From: Prosopocoilus inquinatus
Lineage: Eukaryota; Arthropoda; Insecta; Coleoptera; Lucanidae
Direction: 5' to 3'
Assembly (NCBI GenBank): GCA_036172665.1
Contig: CM069877.1
Location: 28,111,001-28,175,000, forward strand
DNA: 64,000 bases
In this document: positions 2,518-63,930 of the stretch, in pieces
Layout: the number at the start of each line of letters is the position of its first letter
Position numbering within the stretch: position 1 is the stretch's first letter
Position numbers and translations under genes: made by a program
Notes under the pieces: generated by a model
What the model was told of the DNA's origin: nothing
The model's input: only the letters and a program-made list of their open reading frames with translations
The model's database searches: none

Positions 2518-5500
2518 CTGAAAACATACAAATGTTAACAAATTTCAGAATTCATAAAATTTCAGTTCAGTCTGTACTTTGGTCATTTCAGTTATTAGTT
2601 GTTTACGTTTTTAATAGATTGTTTATCAACTATTTATACCCATTCGCAAAATGCCATAGATTAAAGATTTTACCAAAGTTTTAAACTTGTTAATTTTGAA
2701 AGCTTTTAAATTTTTTAAGTGTTAACTATGAAGTCGCCTTTAATCACTACCATTTTCAGAAAGAATGATTACAGGAAACTGTAGTTTGTCTAAATTTTCG
2801 ACTGTATCAGAATAGATGGTTTATTTAAAAATTTCAGTCGTATGCCACCAACGGATTTTGTTAAGGATAAACTACAAAAACTTATCTGCACGAGAGTTAC
2901 GATTGACAACACTTACGTTTTTAGCTTCAGAAGATTCGCATAGCGGTGTCTATCTTTTTAGAATTTTCAAATCTAATCCTGAAGGGTGTATTAATTATAG
3001 CATTTTCCGCTGGCTGCATTAGTGTGTACACTGAGTCTATCTTGATCTCGTTTTAATACATTTAGCTGAACCGAGATGGAAATACACTCAGTGCACATTA
3101 GTGCAGCCAGTGGAAAACGCTATTAGAATTATGGCCGTTTTCATAATCAGACTTTAAGGTATATTTAATTTAAAGTCACTTTAAGAATAGGGAAACAAGT
3201 GTACTTTTTAGGTTAAAGTAACTTTAAATTTAAAGACCTATTGTGAAATCAGTCTGATTATGAAAACGGCCGTAAGTAATTTTTCTCTTTTTAAAGTTAC
3301 TTTAAATTAAAGTTTCCTCTATTCGAATTATGAAAACAGCCTTGCTCAGTCTGGAGTTTCTCGTTTTTAAAAAAATAAAATGTCCAAAACCTGTGTTTTT
3401 TCTTGCTTATTATTTTACTGTTTTACCTCTGTGAAGTTGGCACCCCATTTTTCAAAAAAGTGATTTTTTATAGGAGTTCTGATAGCACCCCAAAGAGTTC
3501 TGGAGTTCTATGTCAAAATTAAAAAGAGTTCTAGCGGATTAAACATAAAAAAATGACTTTTAAAATTTGGGGTGCTAAGTTCACAAAACGGAATTTGAAA
3601 ATTGGCTATAAAATGTTAATTGTTGGAAATAATTAATTTCACCATTAAGACTTTCTCTAGAACTATTGAGGTGCTATCCAGAACTCTAAACGGAATCTCG
3701 AAATTTTGAAATTACTATGTCCCCCTTATTCTACAAAAGATCAGAACACGAAGAAACATTTTATTTTTGGGTGCAGAGACCTATAAATGCTAAATAATTA
3801 TTAGTTTAAGTACCATACTACTCTTAAAAGAAAAGAAATTCAAATTAATTTTTTTTTTCATTTTACGCTTTGACAACACTTCAATTCGAGAAACGAAAAA
3901 TCGCTGGAACTTTTTTACTTTTGATTTTAGCGCTTTGGTCTTTAAGGATAATCGTGAGCACTTGTGGGGTGCTACCCAGAACTCCAAGCAGAACGGAAAA
4001 ATTTTCGAGAAAAATTTCCATTTTGCACTTTGACAAAATTTCATATCGAGACACGAAAAATCGCTGGAACTTTTTTACTTTTGATTTTAGCGCTTTGGTC
4101 GTTAAGGATAATCGTGAGCACTCGTGGGGTGCTACCCAGAACTCCATGCAGAACGGAAAAATTTTTGAGAAAAATTTCCATTTTGAACTTTGACAAAATT
4201 TCATATCGAAACATGAAAAATCGCTGGAACTTTTTTACTTTACTTACTTTTTTACTTTACTTTACTTTTCCTGGTGCTACCCAGAGCTCCAAGCAGAACG
4301 GAAAAATTTTCCAGAAAAATTTCCATTTTGCACTTTGACAAAATTTCATATCGAGACACTTACAAATTAAAAAAAAAAACACTTCATGATAATTCTCGCC
4401 GGTATTAAAAAGAGGACAATACTCTTCTTGGTAAAAGGTAATGTAAAATTTCACTTTCCAATAATCTGTATTGGATCTTTCTCTTACCTATCCTTAAGAG
4501 CTGATTTAAACCTTGACTTCCTTGTATGCGAATACTTTAAAGAAAAGGACAAACGTAATACCACAAAATATAACCGACTTTTAGGAATTTCGGTTCTCTA
4601 TTGAGAGTTTTCGATAACACTTCACAAGTTCTAACGATAAACTTTCAGGACCGAAACACTAAAATCAACCAGCTCTAGCGATTTTTCGTATTTTGATTAG
4701 AATTATTGATGACAATGTAAGACAGATGTGTTTTGAGAATCTCGAAGAGTTCTCACGATTACCTTTCATCACCTAAGCGCTAAAATCAAAAGTAAAAAAG
4801 TTCCAGCGATTTTTCATGTTTCGATATGAAATTTTGTCAAAGTTCAAAATGGAAATTTTTCTCAAAAATTTTTCCGTTCTGCATGGAGTTCTGGTTAGCA
4901 CCCCACGAGTGCTCACGATTATCCTTAACGACCAAAGCGCTAAAATCAAAAGTAAAAAAGTTCCAGCGATTTTTCCTGTCTCGACAAGAAATTTTGTCAA
5001 AGTGCAAAATGGAAATTTTTCTCGAAAATTCTTCCGTTCTGCTTGGAGTTCTGGGTAGCACCCCACGAGTGCTCACGATTATCCTTAATGAGCAAAGCGC
5101 TAAAATCAAAAGTAAAAAAGTTCCAGCGATTTTTCCTGTCTCGATATGAAATTTTGTCAAAGTGCCAAATGGAAATTTTTCTCGAAAATTTTTCCGTTCG
5201 GCATGGAGTTCTGGATAGCATCCCACGTGTGCTCACGATTATCCTTAAAGACCAAAGCGCTAAAATCAAAAGTAAAAAAGTTCCAGCGATTTTTCCTGTC
5301 TCGATATGAAATTTTGTTAAAGTGCAAAATGGAAATTTTTCTCGAAAATTTTTCCGTTCTGCATGGAGTTCTAGGTAGCACCCCACGAGTGCTCACGATT
5401 ATCCTTAACGACCAAAGCGCTAAAATCAAAAGTAATAAAGTTCCAACGATTTTTCGTTTCTCGAATTGAAGTGTTGTCAAAGTGTAAAGTGAAAAAAAAA

Positions 5501-8500: not shown

Positions 8501-11500
8501 TAGACAAAATCGTAGCTGAAGATGTCAATCCTCTCTACGTGGGTGGATAGATTACCGACTATTTGATTTCTGTTGATAATCCATTAATCGAATGACCAAC
8601 AGTTCCAACGTAACTTTCATAGAGCAATACGGCTAATAGAAATTCTCTTATAATCTCACAGAAGAAAATTAATTAAACAAAAAGAAATAATGAATTTTCA
8701 AAATATTTTTTAAATTGATCTCCGCCGCGTTCAACACTTTCTTGCTACAAGGTAATTAGCATTCATTTTTAAATTTGTAAGTAATTTTAATTTAATACGT
8801 CTTGTAGCATATTTTATCTTGCACCCGGTATAGAAATGACAAGTTCAGGCTTTGTATAACTAGATTTATGGTAATTATTTTACACATTTATACTTATCTA
8901 AATATTTTGTAATGCAGTGTAATTTCTTTTGTAATAATAAATTTTTCTATAGGGCATCTGTGCCATTTTTCGCAAATGCTACGAATCGAAGTACGCAAGC
9001 TGAAGCTGCGATGGGACCAACTTCGCTGACACTGAAGTAAATACTACAATTTTGAGTTAAAACTGAAGCATTTAGTAGCCGAAGTAAATAGTTCAGAGTG
9101 AAGTAAACACTTCGATAATTTCCACACGAATGCTATTTGGCGTAGTATCTTCCGGAAAATAATAGTACTTACTTCAAAGTGTAGCATCTTCTCAAAAACT
9201 CAAGTAAATACTACGAAGAAGATACTTCAAACTGTAGCTTTAGCATTTACTACGTTTTTATTCATACCACCAATTGGTTCAGACTTCCTATTAATGCAAA
9301 ATAACGCACGACAGTCATTACTGAGATTGTACAAGAAAACATTAATGAAGTCGGAATGAAGATTTTAGACCGCCCTGCTAGAATCCCAAATCGAAATAGA
9401 ATTGAGCATGTTTGGGACCATATCGAGTTCTCAGCCTCCAGCAATCAATTCGCACTAACAGTAGCTGAAGAACGGCACCATCTAAATCAAGACTATACCT
9501 GAAGTAATATTTAGTACTAAGACGAATGCCAAGCTATTACACAAGCTAGAGGCGGAAATACTCTTTACTACTGTTCTTTTTAATTAATATTATTTAACCT
9601 AATTGTGTCCTTCGATATAAAATTAGTGATTTCTTAATAGTAATGGGTAAATTTAACTAGAATAGAATAAGTAACGAAAATGACTAGAATAAATAATGAA
9701 TAATAAAAATGAATATTAACCACTACAAAATAAATTACGCCATTTAAAGAAAAAAAATCAAGTGATGCGATAATTTTTTTGCGGACTGAGTGTATTAAAG
9801 AAGCATTCAGTCAAATATACATGGGCTGCTGGAAAATTTTCTGGAATATAGTAGGTCTAAAATTGTTAGCGTTTATCAACAGTCATATTTGAAAAATTTG
9901 ACGTTTCTCGCCTATAATTCTATTGACAGTTCCTATCCAAGTGAACTAGTTTTGTTTGTACAGCATTTGAGAAAAAGTAATTTTGTGTAAACATGGAAAT
10001 CTCGCGTGAAAATTTTCGTGCTATGATTTTTTACGATTTCAAATGTGGTCTAACGCCGAAACAATACCTCTATCGGCTTCATTTGGCTTTTGGAGATGAA
10101 GCACCATCAAAGAGTAGTGTTTATAATTGGTTTGCCGAATTCCAGCGTGGACGTACCTCTCTCGGTGACGAATTTCGTGAAGGTCGTCCATCAACATCCG
10201 TTGTTGCCACTAATGTAGACGCTGTGCGTGAAATGCTTGAACGAGATCGACATGTCACATACCGTGAGATTCAAGCATCCTTACGCATTGACATGAAAGC
10301 AATACACCAGATTTGGATTGGATTGAGTTGGATCCCACACAATTTAACAGAAGCGCAAAAGCAGGGTCGTGACAAATGGTGCGAAGAAATACTCAAGAAA
10401 TTCAATGGAGGTCGTATAACATCGTTACTGGTGACGAAACGTGGATCTATTCGTACGAGCCAGAAAGTAAACAGCAATCTACCGTTTGGGTATTTCAAAA
10501 TGAACCAAACCCAACAAAAGTTTTCCTTCACGCAGAGCTGCGAAGCAAATGATTGCTTGTTTCTTTGGTTTAACTGGACATGTAGCAACCGTGGCTTTAG
10601 AGGATCGAGAAACCGTGAATGCTGATTGGTATACTACAATTTGTTTGCCGGAAGTCATCGATCATATAAGAAGAAACAATCGAAATCGACGAATTATTCT
10701 CCATCATGACAACAACAGCTCTCACTCAGCCCGTCAAACAGTTGATTTTTTGTCCAACAAAAATGTTGAATTAATGACTCATTGTCCATATTCACCTGAT
10801 TCATCACCTAATGATTTCTTTTTGTTCCCAAATATCAAAAATAAAATGCGTGGTGAGCGATTTTCGTCGGCTGAAGCAGCGGTTGAAACATTCCGGACAC
10901 TGGTTTCTGAGGTACCATCTTTAGAGTGGAAAACGTGCTTTAGAAATTAGTTCTAGCGTATGCAAAAGTGTATTGACGTCAAAGGCGAATACTTCGAAAA
11001 ACAATGATATCGTTTACCAAATTTCATATGCGTTTTTTCATACCGTTTACAGAAACTTTTCCAGCAGCCCACGTAATATGAAGTTGCTTCAAGTCACTTG
11101 CGTGAACAATTTGAAATTCTTGACGTTTGGTGGTCCTTGACATTCACTAAGTGAAAACTCAAACATACGTTTAAAACGAATTTAAATTTCTTATTTGAGA
11201 GAAAAATTAGTGGCAAATCAAGAAGAGGCAGGTCTTAAATGGGAATGATAACATAATGAAAACTCTCTAAAAAGTACATATGTCATCGACATGGCTTTCA
11301 CTATCTAGGGAAAATAAAATCATAAAATAAGTCTTAAACTTACCGTTGCAGGATTCACACGCCTTTCCTCCGAGGGATACCGCTGGATCCGAGCTGCCGT
11401 TACTGCTGCCATTTACAATCCCTTTATTATTATTGAGCGCCGCGGGATTGGACTTATTACTACAGGACGACAATAGTAATACAAAAAGGCAAAGTAATGA

Positions 11501-32500: not shown

Positions 32501-35500
32501 TGCAAATGTGTTTATTTTTTCCCGTTCTTTTTTAAATTACATCATTTTGCTTTAAATTAAATATTTCGAAATGCTTGAAACCGTCGCAAAGAAAAAAAAT
32601 AATTAAATTAATAAATGTCGACCGAGTTGTCAACGCTTCTATTTATTGTTGTTTGATTTATATTTATACAAAATTTTAAATATTAAAAGTCAAACTCCCC
32701 GAAGAAATTTTGACTTTTAAAAAACTTCTTTATTTATAAATTTCTGATAAAATGATAGAGAACAATTTTATTTCAGAATTTTGTTCTCCGCCGATTGGTC
32801 AAATAATATACAGCATGTTCCGTTTTAAAAAAGTGTTCTTTTCCCTCTATTTCATAAACAATATGTTCAATTGTTCTTTTGAGTGCGTTGTTGTAATCAG
32901 GGCAAAAAGTACTGCTAGTCTGCTAATTTAACCGTATCTGTAAAGTTAGCAGTAGTGCCGAGTTATTTTTAAACAGGTGTATAACAAAATACCATTACAA
33001 GCCGCGGGTTGGGGTGCCGAGTGTCGATGTGTCGCGGTCAGACGTGCAGGCGATTGTCGCCTATTATGCGAATGCAGTGTTTCCTGGAAGGCACGCCATC
33101 TCTACGAAGTATTCCAGAGTGGACGCGAAAAGGTCTATACATTTCTGAGGCATACGAAGTAGCTTTATAAAGGGGATCAGGCGCGGACTTCGAGCTGTTT
33201 TTATTTCATCAAGCGATACGTACGAGCAGCTTAAGCGAATAAGATGGAATGTAACTGTGTCAAAAAGAAATGTTATAAGGTATTATTAGTGTATTCTGTG
33301 TGAAACCGATTGTGTTTTTAATAGTGTTTGAAATGAAATTAGTCAACGAGTATTATTTGCGAACCCATAACAATATTATAAATCTATCGCCGTAAAGTAC
33401 GTATTCAATTAGGTCTATTCTGTAAGCATTTCATATCAATTTCATATGTAACAAGTATAACAATTGATTTCTTAAAAACCGTATTCTCTTCAATTGATTA
33501 TTACGGCCGCGGCATACTAAAGTGTCATTCGTGGACTGCTGTGGTTCCTATGGTTATATATCAATTAATTCTCTTCAATTATTGTTAGGTATCAACTGAA
33601 ATGTGCTGATGCTTACAGAATACACATGAATGTACAAACAAGGATGCGAATGCGTTTCGTCCCTCAAAATCGAGATTTTCATTTAGAGAAGGTAAAATTG
33701 GAAAATTTTTACTTTGATCTTCGTTAACTACTACTCCCGCGTTACTTTATCGATTATTCTTGCATACCTTTAGAGACCTTCAAGCTATCGATTTTTTATT
33801 ATTATTAGAATTTTTTTTTTGCAGTTGTTTATTGGTATTGATTTTAGTTTTAAATCCCACAATAAAATGTCAAGTTCGAACATTCAAAAGAAATTAAACT
33901 TAATTAAATATCGAGAAATGTTTCACTATTTATTATCTTGTTTCGGCATTTTAGAGAGCGAATCTATTTTCTATTTTTATTTAAATTTTAATGTAAGGGT
34001 AAAATTTCTAAGTCTGATGTATAAAACGATGTTTCAAAGTGACAATCCTGAGACAAGACTGCAAAAAATAAAGAGGTCTTTTTGTTACTTTGTTTATGTA
34101 CAGTCGTTGTACTTGATCTAGTTGTCTTCTCGTTTATGTTTTTATTCTGTATTAACACAGTTCGTGTAATTATGGACTCCAACAATGGGTATTTGGAACA
34201 GTTATTTTCTTTTTCCTCTTTAGGGGTTTTAAGCACTTTTAAGCGTACGTGGGCTGCTGGAAAAGTTTCTGGAAACGGTATGAAAAAACGCATATAAAAT
34301 ATGGTAAACATTATCATTGTTTTTCGAAGTATTCTCCTTTGACGTCAATACACTTTTGCATACGCTCGAACCAATTTCTAAAGCAAGTTTTCCACTCTAA
34401 AGATGGTACCTCAGAAACCAGTGTCCGGAATGTTTCAACCGCTGCTTCAGCCGACGAAAATCGCTCACCACGCACTTTATTTTTGATATTTGGGAACAAA
34501 AAGAAATCATTAGGTGATGAATCAGGTGAATATGGACAATGAGTCATTAATTCAACATTTTTGTTGGACAAAAAATCAACTGTTTGACGGGCTGAGTGAG
34601 AGCTGGCGTTGTCATGATGGAGAATAATTCGTCGATTTCGATTGTTTCTTCTTATATGATCGATGACTTCCGGCAAACAAATTGTAGTATACCAATCAGC
34701 ATTCACGGTTTTTCGATCCTCTAAAGCCACGGTTGCTACATGTCCAGTTAAACCAAAGAAACAAGCAATCATTTGCTTCGCAGCTCTGCGTGAAGGACAA
34801 CTTTTGTTGGTTTTGGTTCATTTTGAAATACCCAAACGATAGATTGTTGTTTACTTTCTGGCTCGTACGATATATCCACGTTTCGTCACCAGTAACAATG
34901 TCATAAACTAAATTTGAACGACCTCCATTGAATTTCTTGAGCATTTCTTCGCACCATTTGACACGACTCTGCTCTTGCGCTTCTGTTAAATTGTGTGGGA
35001 TCCAGCGACTGCAAAGCTTTCGTACGTTCAAATGATCATGCAAAATCTGGTGTATTGCTTTCATGTCAATGCGTAAGGATGCTTGAATCTCACGGTATGT
35101 GACATGTCGATCTCGTTCAAGCATTTCACGCACAGCATCTACATTAGTGGCAACAACGGATGTTGATGGACGACCTTCACGAAATTCGTCACTGAGAGAG
35201 GTACGTCCACGCTGGAATTCGACAAACCAATTATAAACACCGTTCTTTGATGGTACTTCATCTCCAAAAGCCAAATGAAATAGACCACATTTGAAATCGT
35301 AAAAAATCATGGCACGAAAATTTTCACGCGAGATTTCCATGTTTACACAAAAATACTTTTTCTCAAATGCTGTACAAACAAAACTAGTTCACTTGGATAG
35401 GAACTGTCAATAGAATTATAGGCGAAAAACGTCAAATTTTTCTAATATGACAGTTGATAAACGCTAACAATTCTAGACCTACTTGATTCCAGAAAATTTT

Positions 35501-56500: not shown

Positions 56501-59500
56501 TTGGACAAAGAAATATAATTTTTGTTTTGGAATGGCCGTTCGTGATATAATTCAGTTCAAAATATCAGCATAATGACGTTTAAAAATCAAGACCGCCTGG
56601 AAAAGTGCTCACAAAAGCTCTAAATAACTGCTTTAGTTAGCAAAAAAAAAAACAATAGAAATTCGAATACTGAAAACCCTAGAAACTGGATTAATAATAT
56701 AAAACAAAATTCCAGGCCGCCTTAATATTTTACTATTTAATTTTAACATTAATTTGTTGATATGAGCACAAATAAGAAAATAAAGATCTTTCATATCATC
56801 AAATAGTATAATATAATAATAAATATCATCAAAGAACTGAAAATGTAAATTTTCTAAAATCTCGAATATCTTCCTTATTTATTGAAACAGAATCATGAAA
56901 TTCGATATTTTTATGTTAAATTCGACAAACAATTTAATAGGCCCGAAGAAATAGGTTAGGATTGATAGTTTCGCAGATACGACTGTCAACTGTCTTTTTT
57001 CTTATGGAGGCTATCTTGGGTATTCATATCACGTGATACAAAATCAAAATCTGAATACGACCATACAACACACTTTTGTTTTAAAATAAAATAAAAAGAT
57101 ACTACAAAAGATTTTGAAAAATAAATATCTAGTAGGCGGATACGTGTAAACATTCAGAACTAAAATTATTATTAAATTAATAAATCTTATTCAATTATGG
57201 TTCTTATATACATATTTACATTAAAAAAAAATTACTTTTTAACAAAAATTCTTAGTAATCTAATATTTTGTTTTAATACAAAAGCATAAATGTTCGTATG
57301 GTCGTATTCAAAAAAATATTTCATAAAAAAAGAAACAGTTGACAGTCGTATCTTCGAAACTGTCAAACCTAAATAAATAGTGAGAAAACCCCTCGACCAC
57401 ATTAATTCACTGAAAGCGAATACGTATTTCGGTAACGATGTTACCATCTTCAGCGCTGAACTGATATTCAGAATATCAGTTTAGCGCTGAAGATGGTAAC
57501 ATCGTTACCGAAATACGTATTCGCTTTCAGTGAATTAATGTGGTCGAGGGGTTTTCTCACTATTTATTTGGATTACAGCCACAGGTTTTGTGTTGCTTTG
57601 TGATTATTGTCAAACCTAACCTATTTCTTCGAACTGCATTACGCAATACATCGAATTTAATATAAAAACACGAATTTTATGATTCTATCTACAGAAATAA
57701 AGAAGATATTCGAGATTTTGGAAAACGAGAATTTTCAATTTTTTGCATATTTTTTTAGACCTCAAGACAGCGTAACTTTTCTGTAATTTAACCATCTTTG
57801 TATCTCTTATCTTTAATTACGAGCCGCCCTGTTGCAAAAACGAGTTGGCCTAGCTACACAAGTTTGTAAGAATCTAAACAAACTATAGGAAATTTTGTTG
57901 ATAATCAGATAATTTTTCGGCATGGTTATAGATCTTTGTTAACTTACTCGTTTTCATGTATTTCACGTGTCGCCCATTGAATCGAGGGGGGGGGAGAACT
58001 TCGTAAAAAGCAAGTGAAGTCTTTAAACGATTTAAAAGCCCCAATTCAAAATATTAAAATATTTGGAATAATTTCACTCCAATTTTTCCAAACCTTAATT
58101 ACTAGTTTACCTAAACGTTAAAAGCTAATATTAAAAATAAAGGAGACGTAACACAATATTAAACGTACTATTAAAACGCGTTAAAAATCATGAATGTAAG
58201 TATTTATAATTAATTATTCTTAACAGTATCGGTTTATGTATAAGGTAGTATTATAAATCTGTTTTAGTTATGAAAATAGTTTATTGATGTATGTGCCTTA
58301 CAATATTTTTTTTTGTTAGTGAAATGTTTAAAAAACTAGGTAGGTCAACTACTTTGCAACAGAGCTCGTAGTTGTAACCCTGTAGACTTTTTGTTTTCTT
58401 TTTCTGTGTACTACCTGTGGTTGACGTGTCGTACACTTTTTTGAATCACCCAGTACTATCGCCGCAAAAAAGGTGTACACTTTTCTTGACGTACATTTAA
58501 CGTTACTAAAACTTTTGCTGGGTAGCTGTAATTATGAACTGTCATTTAGGAATGACAAAACAAATTAGCTTTTTTAAAGACAAATTCATTTTTCATTTTT
58601 ACCTTAGCTGTAGCCATGGTTAACACAAGCTAATATTTTTCAAATTGAAATAATGACTGAACTTCATTAATTATTGTCTGCCATCCGTAATTGTCAGTTC
58701 ATAATTATAGTCACTCTGCAAAATTCTTAGCATTACTCAATTTATGTCAAAAAAAATTGTCCATTTTTTGACGGAGACACTAGGTATATTCGAAACTATA
58801 ACAAAAGATTAGGTAGGATTAAAGGAAGTGTTCATAGATGGCGCCACAATAATTTTACATGTAAGAAGAAAATTAGTAAACCGAGAAAAAGATAAGTGAT
58901 CCGTTAAACGAATGCTTGGAACTATTTGTAATTAAATATTTTATTTCCTGTAGATAATAGGGTTCTGGTTTTTATTTTAAGGAGTAGAATATTTAATTAA
59001 CGCTTCACAATGTGTCAGCGTACGACTATCGAGAGCAACGCGAAGGTCGGTAGTACATTAACGCAACGATAATTCGCGGCTTACAAAATGTCCAGTTCTA
59101 AAATAAAAATAAGGTCGTTGGCTCGATAGATCGCGGTAAAAGTAACAACCTGGTGAAAAGTGATCAAGTAGGCAGGTAAGACTTAAACGTTAGTTTACGG
59201 GTCTCACGTTTTTTTTCATTTGCTGAATGCAATTTGGTAAATTAGGTTTTACTACAAGTGTCCATCTGCCGGTAAACAATAGAGTGGAATAGCATTGGCG
59301 TTGGCTCGGCCAGTTTTTGCGTGTAATTATAAAAGTACAGTCGTGGGGAAAGAACAAGCATCTCGCAGTTGTCATAGCGACGCGGTCTGATCAAGTACAG
59401 TTGCGGCAGGATTTCGCGAAACAACGAGCCACGGTCGGTGACAAGACAGGTACAGTGGTGTACAGTCAACGAATATCGATCGCCTAATCAAGTCTTTTAC

Positions 59501-62939: not shown

Positions 62940-63930
62940 TTATTTGATGAACATATAAAATAGTGACATCTTACTATCGCTTTTTGACCTAACATTGCAG
63001 TAGGATAGACAAATTGAAGCGGGATTTGCTCCTAATGAGTCCCCCATGCAAGGCGGCCATGCTTGCTGTCAAAGCATAATGAAAGATTTTAGAAAAATTT
63101 TGTGCAAATTGTTTTTGATTGCAGTGAGAACCTCGAGCAGCCTCTGGACAGCTGTTTCAGCCCTGCTTGGGGCTTCTTCAGCAGAAACGTAGCTCGACAT
63201 TCCCACTGCAGACCAAAAACGACTTGCCCAATTTATTCACAAATGCGATGTAAGAATGATGAACATATAAAATAGCGACATCTTACTATCGCTTTTTGAC
63301 CTAACATTGCAGTAGGATAGACAAATTGAAGCGGGATTTGCTCCTAATGAGTCCCGCTTCAATTTGTCTATCCTACTGCAATGTTAGGTCAAAAAGCGAT
63401 AGTAAGATGTCGCTATTTTATATGTTCATCATTCTTACATCGCATTTGTGAATAAATAATTCGACGAATCACCATGACAACTATTGATAAAATTCAACTT
63501 ATTTGCCAAGTAACGTTAATGGGAACAGATAAAACAGCGACATCCGACGATCGTTTTTTGACCTGACATAGATAGGATAGATAAATTGAAGCGGATTTGC
63601 TCCTAATAAGTCCCCCATGCAAGGCGGCCATGCTTGCTGTCAAAGCATAATGAAAGTTTTTAAAAAAATTTGTTGCAAATCGTTTTTGATTGCAGTGAAA
63701 AACTCGAGCAGCCTCTGTACAGCTGTTTCAACCCTGTTTGGGGCTTCATCATCAGAGACGTAGCTCGACATTCACACTGCAAACCAAAAGCGACTTGTCC
63801 AATTTATTCGCAATGGCGATGTAATAGTGATGAGCAGAGAAAACAGCGGCATCCTACGATCCCTTTTTGTCCTGACATTGCAAAAGGATAGATAAATTGA
63901 AGCGGATTTGCTCCTAATAATGGGAACGCA
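62940..63930. repeat. Cluster of the CGCTTTTTGACCT dispersed repeat
   Basis: Two long direct units (about 62955-63245 and 63530-63830) share CATCTTACTATCGCTTTTTG or its variant, AATTGAAGCGG, CCCCCATGCAAGGCGGCCAT and CGAGCAGCCTCTG; a third partial unit follows at 63850. Related fragments are at 26.9, 44.7 and 49.05 kb. No coding potential recognised, so this is a non-autonomous element of unknown class. Confidence 0.8.
63231..63458. repeat. 228-bp near-perfect palindrome
   Basis: Arms 63231-63336 and 63352-63458 are inverted copies (ATTTATTCACAAATGCGATG to AAGCGGGA) around a 15-bp loop. It is built from the repeat cluster's own unit and lies between its two direct copies. Confidence 0.9.

Follow-up and report, generated by a model that had tools for sequence, protein, structure and literature searches.

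The stretch of DNA analysed here, hereafter referred to as the window, comprises 64,000 nucleotides (28,111,001-28,175,000) of contig CM069877.1 of the lucanid beetle Prosopocoilus inquinatus. Near its end lies a near-perfect palindrome of 235 bases (57373-57607), which carries a hammerhead core on either strand, a 12-bp target-site duplication (TSD) and a tail; its arms were delimited by the repeat finder at 57366-57469 and 57471-57574 and are 97% complementary. The features of the palindrome, with arm positions given as those of the pseudo-LTR (pLTR) of a Penelope-like element (PLE) discussed below, and those of a second element in the window are as follows.

56818-57755, no strand assigned: older inverted-repeat host element, interrupted by the insertion
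57361-57372, no strand assigned: left target-site duplication, TGTCAAACCTAA, from repeat finding; paralogues show the empty site
57373-57468, minus strand: tail-less arm of 96 nt, PLE pLTR positions 96 to 1, its outer end at the putative proximal start site
57415-57457, minus strand: the same hammerhead core on the opposite strand, from the strict scan
57469-57471, no strand assigned: centre CAG, putative junction of two cDNA 3' ends; the centre differs among copies
57472-57607, plus strand: tailed arm, PLE pLTR positions 1-136, with 97.8-99.3% identity to the full-length pLTRs adjoining GIY-YIG
57483-57525, plus strand: minimal type I hammerhead core, predicted cut after 57521, from the strict scan
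57493-57603, plus strand: 36-codon frame and stop, its ATG overlapping the start of stem II
about 57568-57607, plus strand: tail of 38-40 nt between the two putative start sites
57608-57619, no strand assigned: right target-site duplication, TGTCAAACCTAA
62945-63457, minus strand: retrozyme-like 312-bp repeat, head-to-head copy, with a core at 63181-63175 and a predicted cut after 63147

Judged from their translations, gene fragments and mariner-like frames of the window have an insect-like appearance. Elsewhere in the window, two mariner-type transposase remnants of one family were read from the translations on opposite strands (9981-10950 and 34314-35388), and two arrays of a 160-bp tandem repeat lie in opposite orientation (3855-4359 and 4747-5495). 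The 36-codon frame within the palindrome has its stop just before the end of the tail and is possibly an upstream ORF of the PLE RNA.

The insertion site of the palindrome is the right arm of the older inverted repeat, and the arms of this host repeat align across the site once the insert is left out. A search for paralogues of the host repeat gave 890 candidates, of which 40 were scored and five fetched; all five align through the site without the insert, three of these alignments having been inspected by eye. The first-pass annotation, made from the letters alone, had described a fresh insertion with a 12-bp target duplication and a tail, interrupting an older inverted repeat whose pairing is restored on its removal, and the repeat finding, the TSD and the empty site bear out this description.

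The hammerhead core on the plus strand consists of CTGAAGA (57487-57493), one extra U, a 6-bp stem II, GAA, AUACGUAU as stem III, U57521 at position H17 and a 4-bp stem I. The strict scan of the window identified cores on both strands of the palindrome, in agreement with the first-pass annotation, and an independent minus-strand core at 63181. Such motifs are rare by chance, as a mean of 0.01 hits per 64 kb over both strands was obtained with the strict scan in 100 first-order Markov copies of the window, and six hits with a looser scan in 400 such copies. The covariance-model check which that annotation had put forward went the other way, with none of the Rfam hammerhead families reaching its gathering score in the 64-kb window and no match at E<=10 over 57300-57700, one of two stretches searched at that level. 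MicroRNA matches in the Rfam search lie below the gathering scores and look like hairpin artefacts, and a search of IMG/VR with a degenerate hammerhead pattern found nothing. The motif is supported as real by another PLE locus, which has a different minimal hammerhead motif with a one-pair stem III downstream of its GIY-YIG match (L033:2130-2185), and by the diverged copy L006, in which a U-A pair of stem II is changed to C-G. PLE hammerheads are described as minimal variants in the accessible part of one account (PMC7761336), and that of PAc, a PLE of Anolis, as protein-assisted (PMC11167929). The computed cost of the hammerhead fold over the best ensemble is 6-8 kcal/mol in the PLE RNA; within the palindrome the fold is 73-76 kcal/mol worse than the hairpin, and on this folding model a palindrome transcript would hide its ribozymes inside the hairpin.

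The 136-nt arm is the pLTR of a PLE with reverse transcriptase (RT) and GIY-YIG endonuclease in the same genome. The core 21-mer of the arm has 845 exact occurrences in the 650-Mb genome and its reversed control has none, while a search with the element gave 779 candidates, 40 of which were scored and showed 95-98% identity, besides the window copy. The arm adjoins GIY-YIG in 25 of the 30 loci fetched out of 150 GIY-YIG matches listed, with full-length arms at the identity to the window arm given above, and has no match in the other five (L032, L033, L035, L036, L041). Both further copies and a PLE sharing the palindrome sequence, for which the first-pass annotation had suggested a search, thus exist in this genome. 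A 788-aa ORF in the long copy L061 comprises RVT_1 and GIY-YIG and has 220 matches among the public proteins, the best with 58% identity; named insect examples include Tribolium castaneum (51% identity over 56%). The frame begins after the tail, contrary to a reading in which the main PLE frame starts at the hammerhead ATG. The first 100 core 21-mer sites all lie on contig C1 and, with the limit set at 6 kb, group into 55 clusters. Minus/plus neighbours number 36, with a spacing below 130 bp in 17 cases, and plus/minus neighbours are lacking.

The insert resembles the endonuclease-containing PLEs in its arm, in the inverted pLTR, one side of which bears a tail of 30-40 bp, in the minimal type I hammerhead motif of the pLTR, which is predicted from the motif scan and has no Rfam match, and in its TSD, though this is longer (12 bp against 8-10 bp in Adineta, according to the accessible part of PMC3846280). 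The ORF for RT and GIY-YIG is absent, in accordance with the earlier remark that the insert has no RT, and the insert is classed as a truncated PLE product rather than an autonomous PLE. It does not have the form of an animal non-LTR retrozyme, in which units about 170-400 bp long, with a type I hammerhead, are repeated in tandem, because its arms are two inverted ones with ends away from the cut site; the retrozyme label attached to it earlier fits a different element of the window, at 62945-63457.

PLE insertions in this genome, whether mini or long, are head-to-head pairs of one tailed and one tail-less arm. On contig C1, where 33 of the 55 clusters were fetched, this tail rule holds in 24 of 25 two-ended insertions with a TSD; the outer end of the tailed arm lies at 134-136 in these 24 and that of the tail-less arm at 94-104 by alignment, except for L064, where the TSD places it nearer 86. 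The exception to the rule, L087, has a TSD, a tailed arm and a second arm ending at 36. Two loci with a short second arm and no TSD (L082, L092) and those showing only one end in the fetched stretch (L083-L086, L089, L090) stand outside the count. Among the long copies (31 loci, L031-L061), all ten distinct insertions with both outer ends in view obey the rule, L057/L058 and L059/L060 being the same two insertions seen twice. Loci L001-L030 had been ordered by their similarity to a query with one tail and the centre CAG; they provide no test of the tail rule and bias the count of centres. The TSD measures 12-13 bp in 44 of 63 cases, with a range of 10-17. Of 65 rows, all but three were scored as tailed plus tail-less, the exceptions being L087 and two loci in which extra matches spoiled the ends (L006, L093) and which are one-tailed in other alignments. 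An optional tail was already known from rotifers, as stated in the accessible part of PMC3846280; its near-strict occurrence on one arm, in larger numbers, is new.

In the 20 mini insertions on C1 (L062-L078, L088, L091, L094), 33 of the 40 arms end at positions -4 to 5 and the remaining seven at 22-40, 79 and 117. The predicted cut falls after arm position 50, and none of the 40 arms ends at 50/51, the nearest case being one inner segment of the complex locus L093 that begins at 52. The templates were therefore mostly uncut at that site, in agreement with the ribozyme mutants of PAc, which had no effect on insertion in vitro (PMC11167929). The ribozyme does not define the insertion ends and is carried along. 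Seven of the ten long copies have arms with unequal inner ends, the tailed arm being longer in L031, L043, L051 and L061 and the tail-less arm in L053, L055 and L059, and in the other three the arms have a common tip (exactly in L057, with a gap in one arm in L040 and L052). The tips of L043, L080 and L081 differ by only 11-28 nt. Such equal or near-equal tips indicate that the tips are correlated, and the two arms may have had a single RNA as their source, or may result from a fold-back followed by deletion. In L075, L080, L081, L088, L091 and L094 the tail-less arm covers RNA positions missing from the tailed arm, the two arm segments of L091 being without overlap, and fold-back pieces occur at the junctions of L052, L059, L066 and L068.

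The central junctions are diverse, with 23 distinct types in 34 scored copies, 30 of which had been ranked by likeness to the window copy. A microhomology joint, CTGATATCAG, is found in six C1 copies and an ATTGAAT junction in seven of the 34, and owing to such recurrence the copies need not all be independent events. Where the centre is a single base, it is G or C in all ten cases, and at 18 of 32 arm ends the added bases begin with C, whereas the PLE base upstream of AATATCAG is T. These centres fit a copied cap, as might result from run-off at a capped RNA. Since 33 of the 40 mini arms end at -4 to 5, the template 5' end at AATATCAG is probably the start of the PLE RNA, although an Inr-like TCAGT follows within a few bases on its downstream side. 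The mini copies, including the window palindrome, are likely dead-end products, as they should be dead on arrival without sequence upstream of the RNA start. An ATC variant, present at 68 sites, occurs in 19 neighbouring minus/plus pairs and one plus/minus pair and is often common to both arms; this sharing argues weakly for a single template RNA, since subfamilies that differ in age would produce it as well.

We consider it quite probable that the window palindrome is a minimal insertion of the genome's own endonuclease-bearing PLE, generated by two-sided primed reverse transcription. The PLE protein would cut both target strands about 12 bp apart, and each target 3' end would prime reverse transcription on the PLE RNA, one primer starting at a distal site (arm position about 136) and leaving the tail, the other at a proximal site (about 96). 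Both cDNAs would run off at the RNA 5' end, their 3' ends being joined through microhomology or one to few added bases, sometimes after a short fold-back, and gap filling would produce the 12-bp TSD. The palindrome would be ORF-less because initiation took place inside the 5' pLTR copy, so that only about 136 and 96 nt were copied, while initiation in the downstream pLTR would lead to the long head-to-head PLE copies. The one-tail rule speaks for a pair of cDNAs in each insertion, primed separately. We regard the arms as such a pair, which may derive from a single RNA molecule, and fold-back as an addition that sometimes occurs at the joint. Two primed cDNAs are joined as an inversion in LINE-1 twin priming also; the PLE insertions differ in that their outer ends lie at fixed internal start sites and their arms usually overlap on the RNA. 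PAc cuts and extends both strands in vitro and has two internal start sites 30-40 nt apart, with the main one 85-92 nt past the ribozyme cut in the numbering of that study (PMC11167929); the corresponding distance here is 86 nt.

The main rival to the two-cDNA model is fold-back with deletions, in which a single cDNA, once extended to the end of its template, would fold back and prime its own copying, the hairpin then joining the other target end and later undergoing central deletions. A related self-priming idea, found in the accessible part of PMC3846280, supposes an antisense template. Self-priming would account for perfect arms around a small centre, for the fold-back pieces in L052, L059, L066 and L068, for the equal tips of L057, L040 and L052 and the near-equal ones of L043, L080 and L081, for the short second arm with a TSD in L087 and for a variant often common to both arms (the 19 to 1 excess of minus/plus over plus/minus pairs for ATC at 68 sites). 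However, the tail-less outer end is nearly fixed (94-104, with L064 nearer 86), resembles a start site and has the spacing known from PAc. As the tail could not be copied from a tail-less cDNA, self-priming requires the tailed arm to be made before the other. It is the tail-less arm, however, that extends further at the tip in L053, L055, L059, L075, L080, L081, L088, L091 and L094, and a simple fold-back needs an extra deletion in each. In addition, the tailed arm to which the fold-back piece of L068 is attached has an end of its own at position 1, and a centre of 0-1 nt would hardly accommodate a loop. Self-priming is considered unlikely.

The first-pass annotation had favoured a miniature, non-autonomous palindromic hammerhead element multiplied as a unit in trans, a view consistent with the many copies with like ends and with the recurrence of some centres. 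The evidence does not support such a line: the arm ends at what is probably the PLE RNA 5' end and lacks the upstream sequence in which a promoter would lie, the 23 distinct centres in 34 scored copies are as expected of separate PLE events, the long PLE copies have the same arm and ends, and the hairpin would hide the hammerhead. This explanation is regarded as very improbable. A DNA transposon of the fold-back or MITE type, carrying a hammerhead by chance, would show inverted arms and a TSD, as observed, but its ends should not be unequal, with one tail, nor its arms equal to the pLTR of an RT element; the rarity of the hammerhead motif by chance and the different motif downstream of GIY-YIG in the PLE locus L033 also speak against it, and hardly any weight can be given to it. 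Two-sided priming on the PLE RNA remains the preferred reading of the palindrome.

The second hammerhead-bearing element of the window, at 62945-63457, is by its anatomy a putative retrozyme, combining a 312-bp period with a type I hammerhead core; its Rfam score for Hammerhead_HH9 is 14.5 bits against a cut-off of 52. An older copy of the repeat lies at about 63523-63918, and a long inverted repeat (63216-63472) that matches Rfam MIR821 below the gathering score coincides with the head-to-head copy. The genome search with the 312-bp repeat gave 970 candidates, 40 of them scored, with full-length matches mostly at 98-99% and several in tandem. The retrozyme unit has no match to the PLE reference copy, and its matches in L032 look like a retrozyme insertion adjoining a PLE fragment.

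Insertions of this retrozyme were examined at 24 loci (L101-L124), 13 of which have both outer ends and a TSD and were counted as 14 insertions. All 14 are head-to-head with a signature of two start sites, one outer end lying at unit position 7-17 and the other at 182-190, with TSDs of 12-14 bp; some share junctions and are non-independent. L122 (220-985) holds two insertions side by side in one target, with outer ends at 184 and 190; it was counted as two, each obeying the rule, because the 12-bp TSD occurs a third time between the two pairs. The 12 other scorable loci have ends at 7-17 and 182-186. Loci with one arm (L104, L108, L121), the window copy itself (L101, no TSD, ends at 41) and seven loci without a TSD, most with an end outside the stretch (L113, L114, L116, L118, L119, L123, L124), were left unscored. 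An arm of up to 3.7 units in L110 implies that the template was multimeric or circular. L103 and L110 have a common 17-nt centre, and L109 and L120 a common 41|155 junction, at different target sites; some retrozyme junctions may thus have been inherited, or an inverted repeat within the unit may favour them. A candidate start-site motif common to PLE and retrozyme (TCACTATTT in the window copy) was equalled in a fraction of 0.10 among 3000 random placements, and other copies have a G variant in which it is lost.

Several of these features have counterparts in known systems. The Adineta endonuclease-containing PLEs, as far as the accessible part of their description extends (PMC3846280), have a pLTR adjoining an ORF for RT and GIY-YIG, a head-to-head inverted copy with an optional 31-bp tail on one pLTR, a TSD and a palindromic junction, as does the family described here. 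Unlike those elements, the window copy is without an ORF and consists of the pLTR arm pair alone, ending at the probable RNA 5' end, and TSDs in its family are mostly 12-13 bp rather than 8-10 bp (PMC3846280, accessible part). PAc of Anolis likewise has an ATG where stem II of its hammerhead begins, and two start sites 30-40 nt apart at a like distance from the cut (PMC11167929). Extension of the target strands was seen for PAc and would be expected here; its ATG starts the main ORF, in contrast to that of the window PLE, which opens the 36-codon frame, the 788-aa frame following the tail. The accessible part of an account of animal non-LTR retrozymes (PMC7229834) describes a type I hammerhead with a very short stem III, as present here, and the 312-bp tandem element fits it; the window palindrome differs in not being tandem and in having ends unrelated to ribozyme cleavage. 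The accessible part of a Drosophila virilis paper (PMC12910113) holds no structural detail for comparison.

PLEs have been proposed as mobilisers of animal retrozymes on the basis of shared features and co-occurrence, according to the accessible parts of PMC7229834 and PMC7761336. The signature in 14 of 14 retrozyme insertions, of which no account was found in the open literature, supports this suggestion. On balance, we lean towards the wider view that hammerhead retrozymes, like the PLEs themselves, are inserted by PLE-type machinery through two-sided target-primed reverse transcription, with one complex using two RNA start sites, one per target strand and perhaps on a single RNA; genomic retrozymes would then be satellites of PLEs. 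The hundreds of copies of one PLE in this genome constitute a large natural experiment on PLE insertion, with readable start sites, junctions and TSDs. The like signature in the retrozymes makes the idea of their mobilisation by PLEs testable, with one protein and two RNAs.
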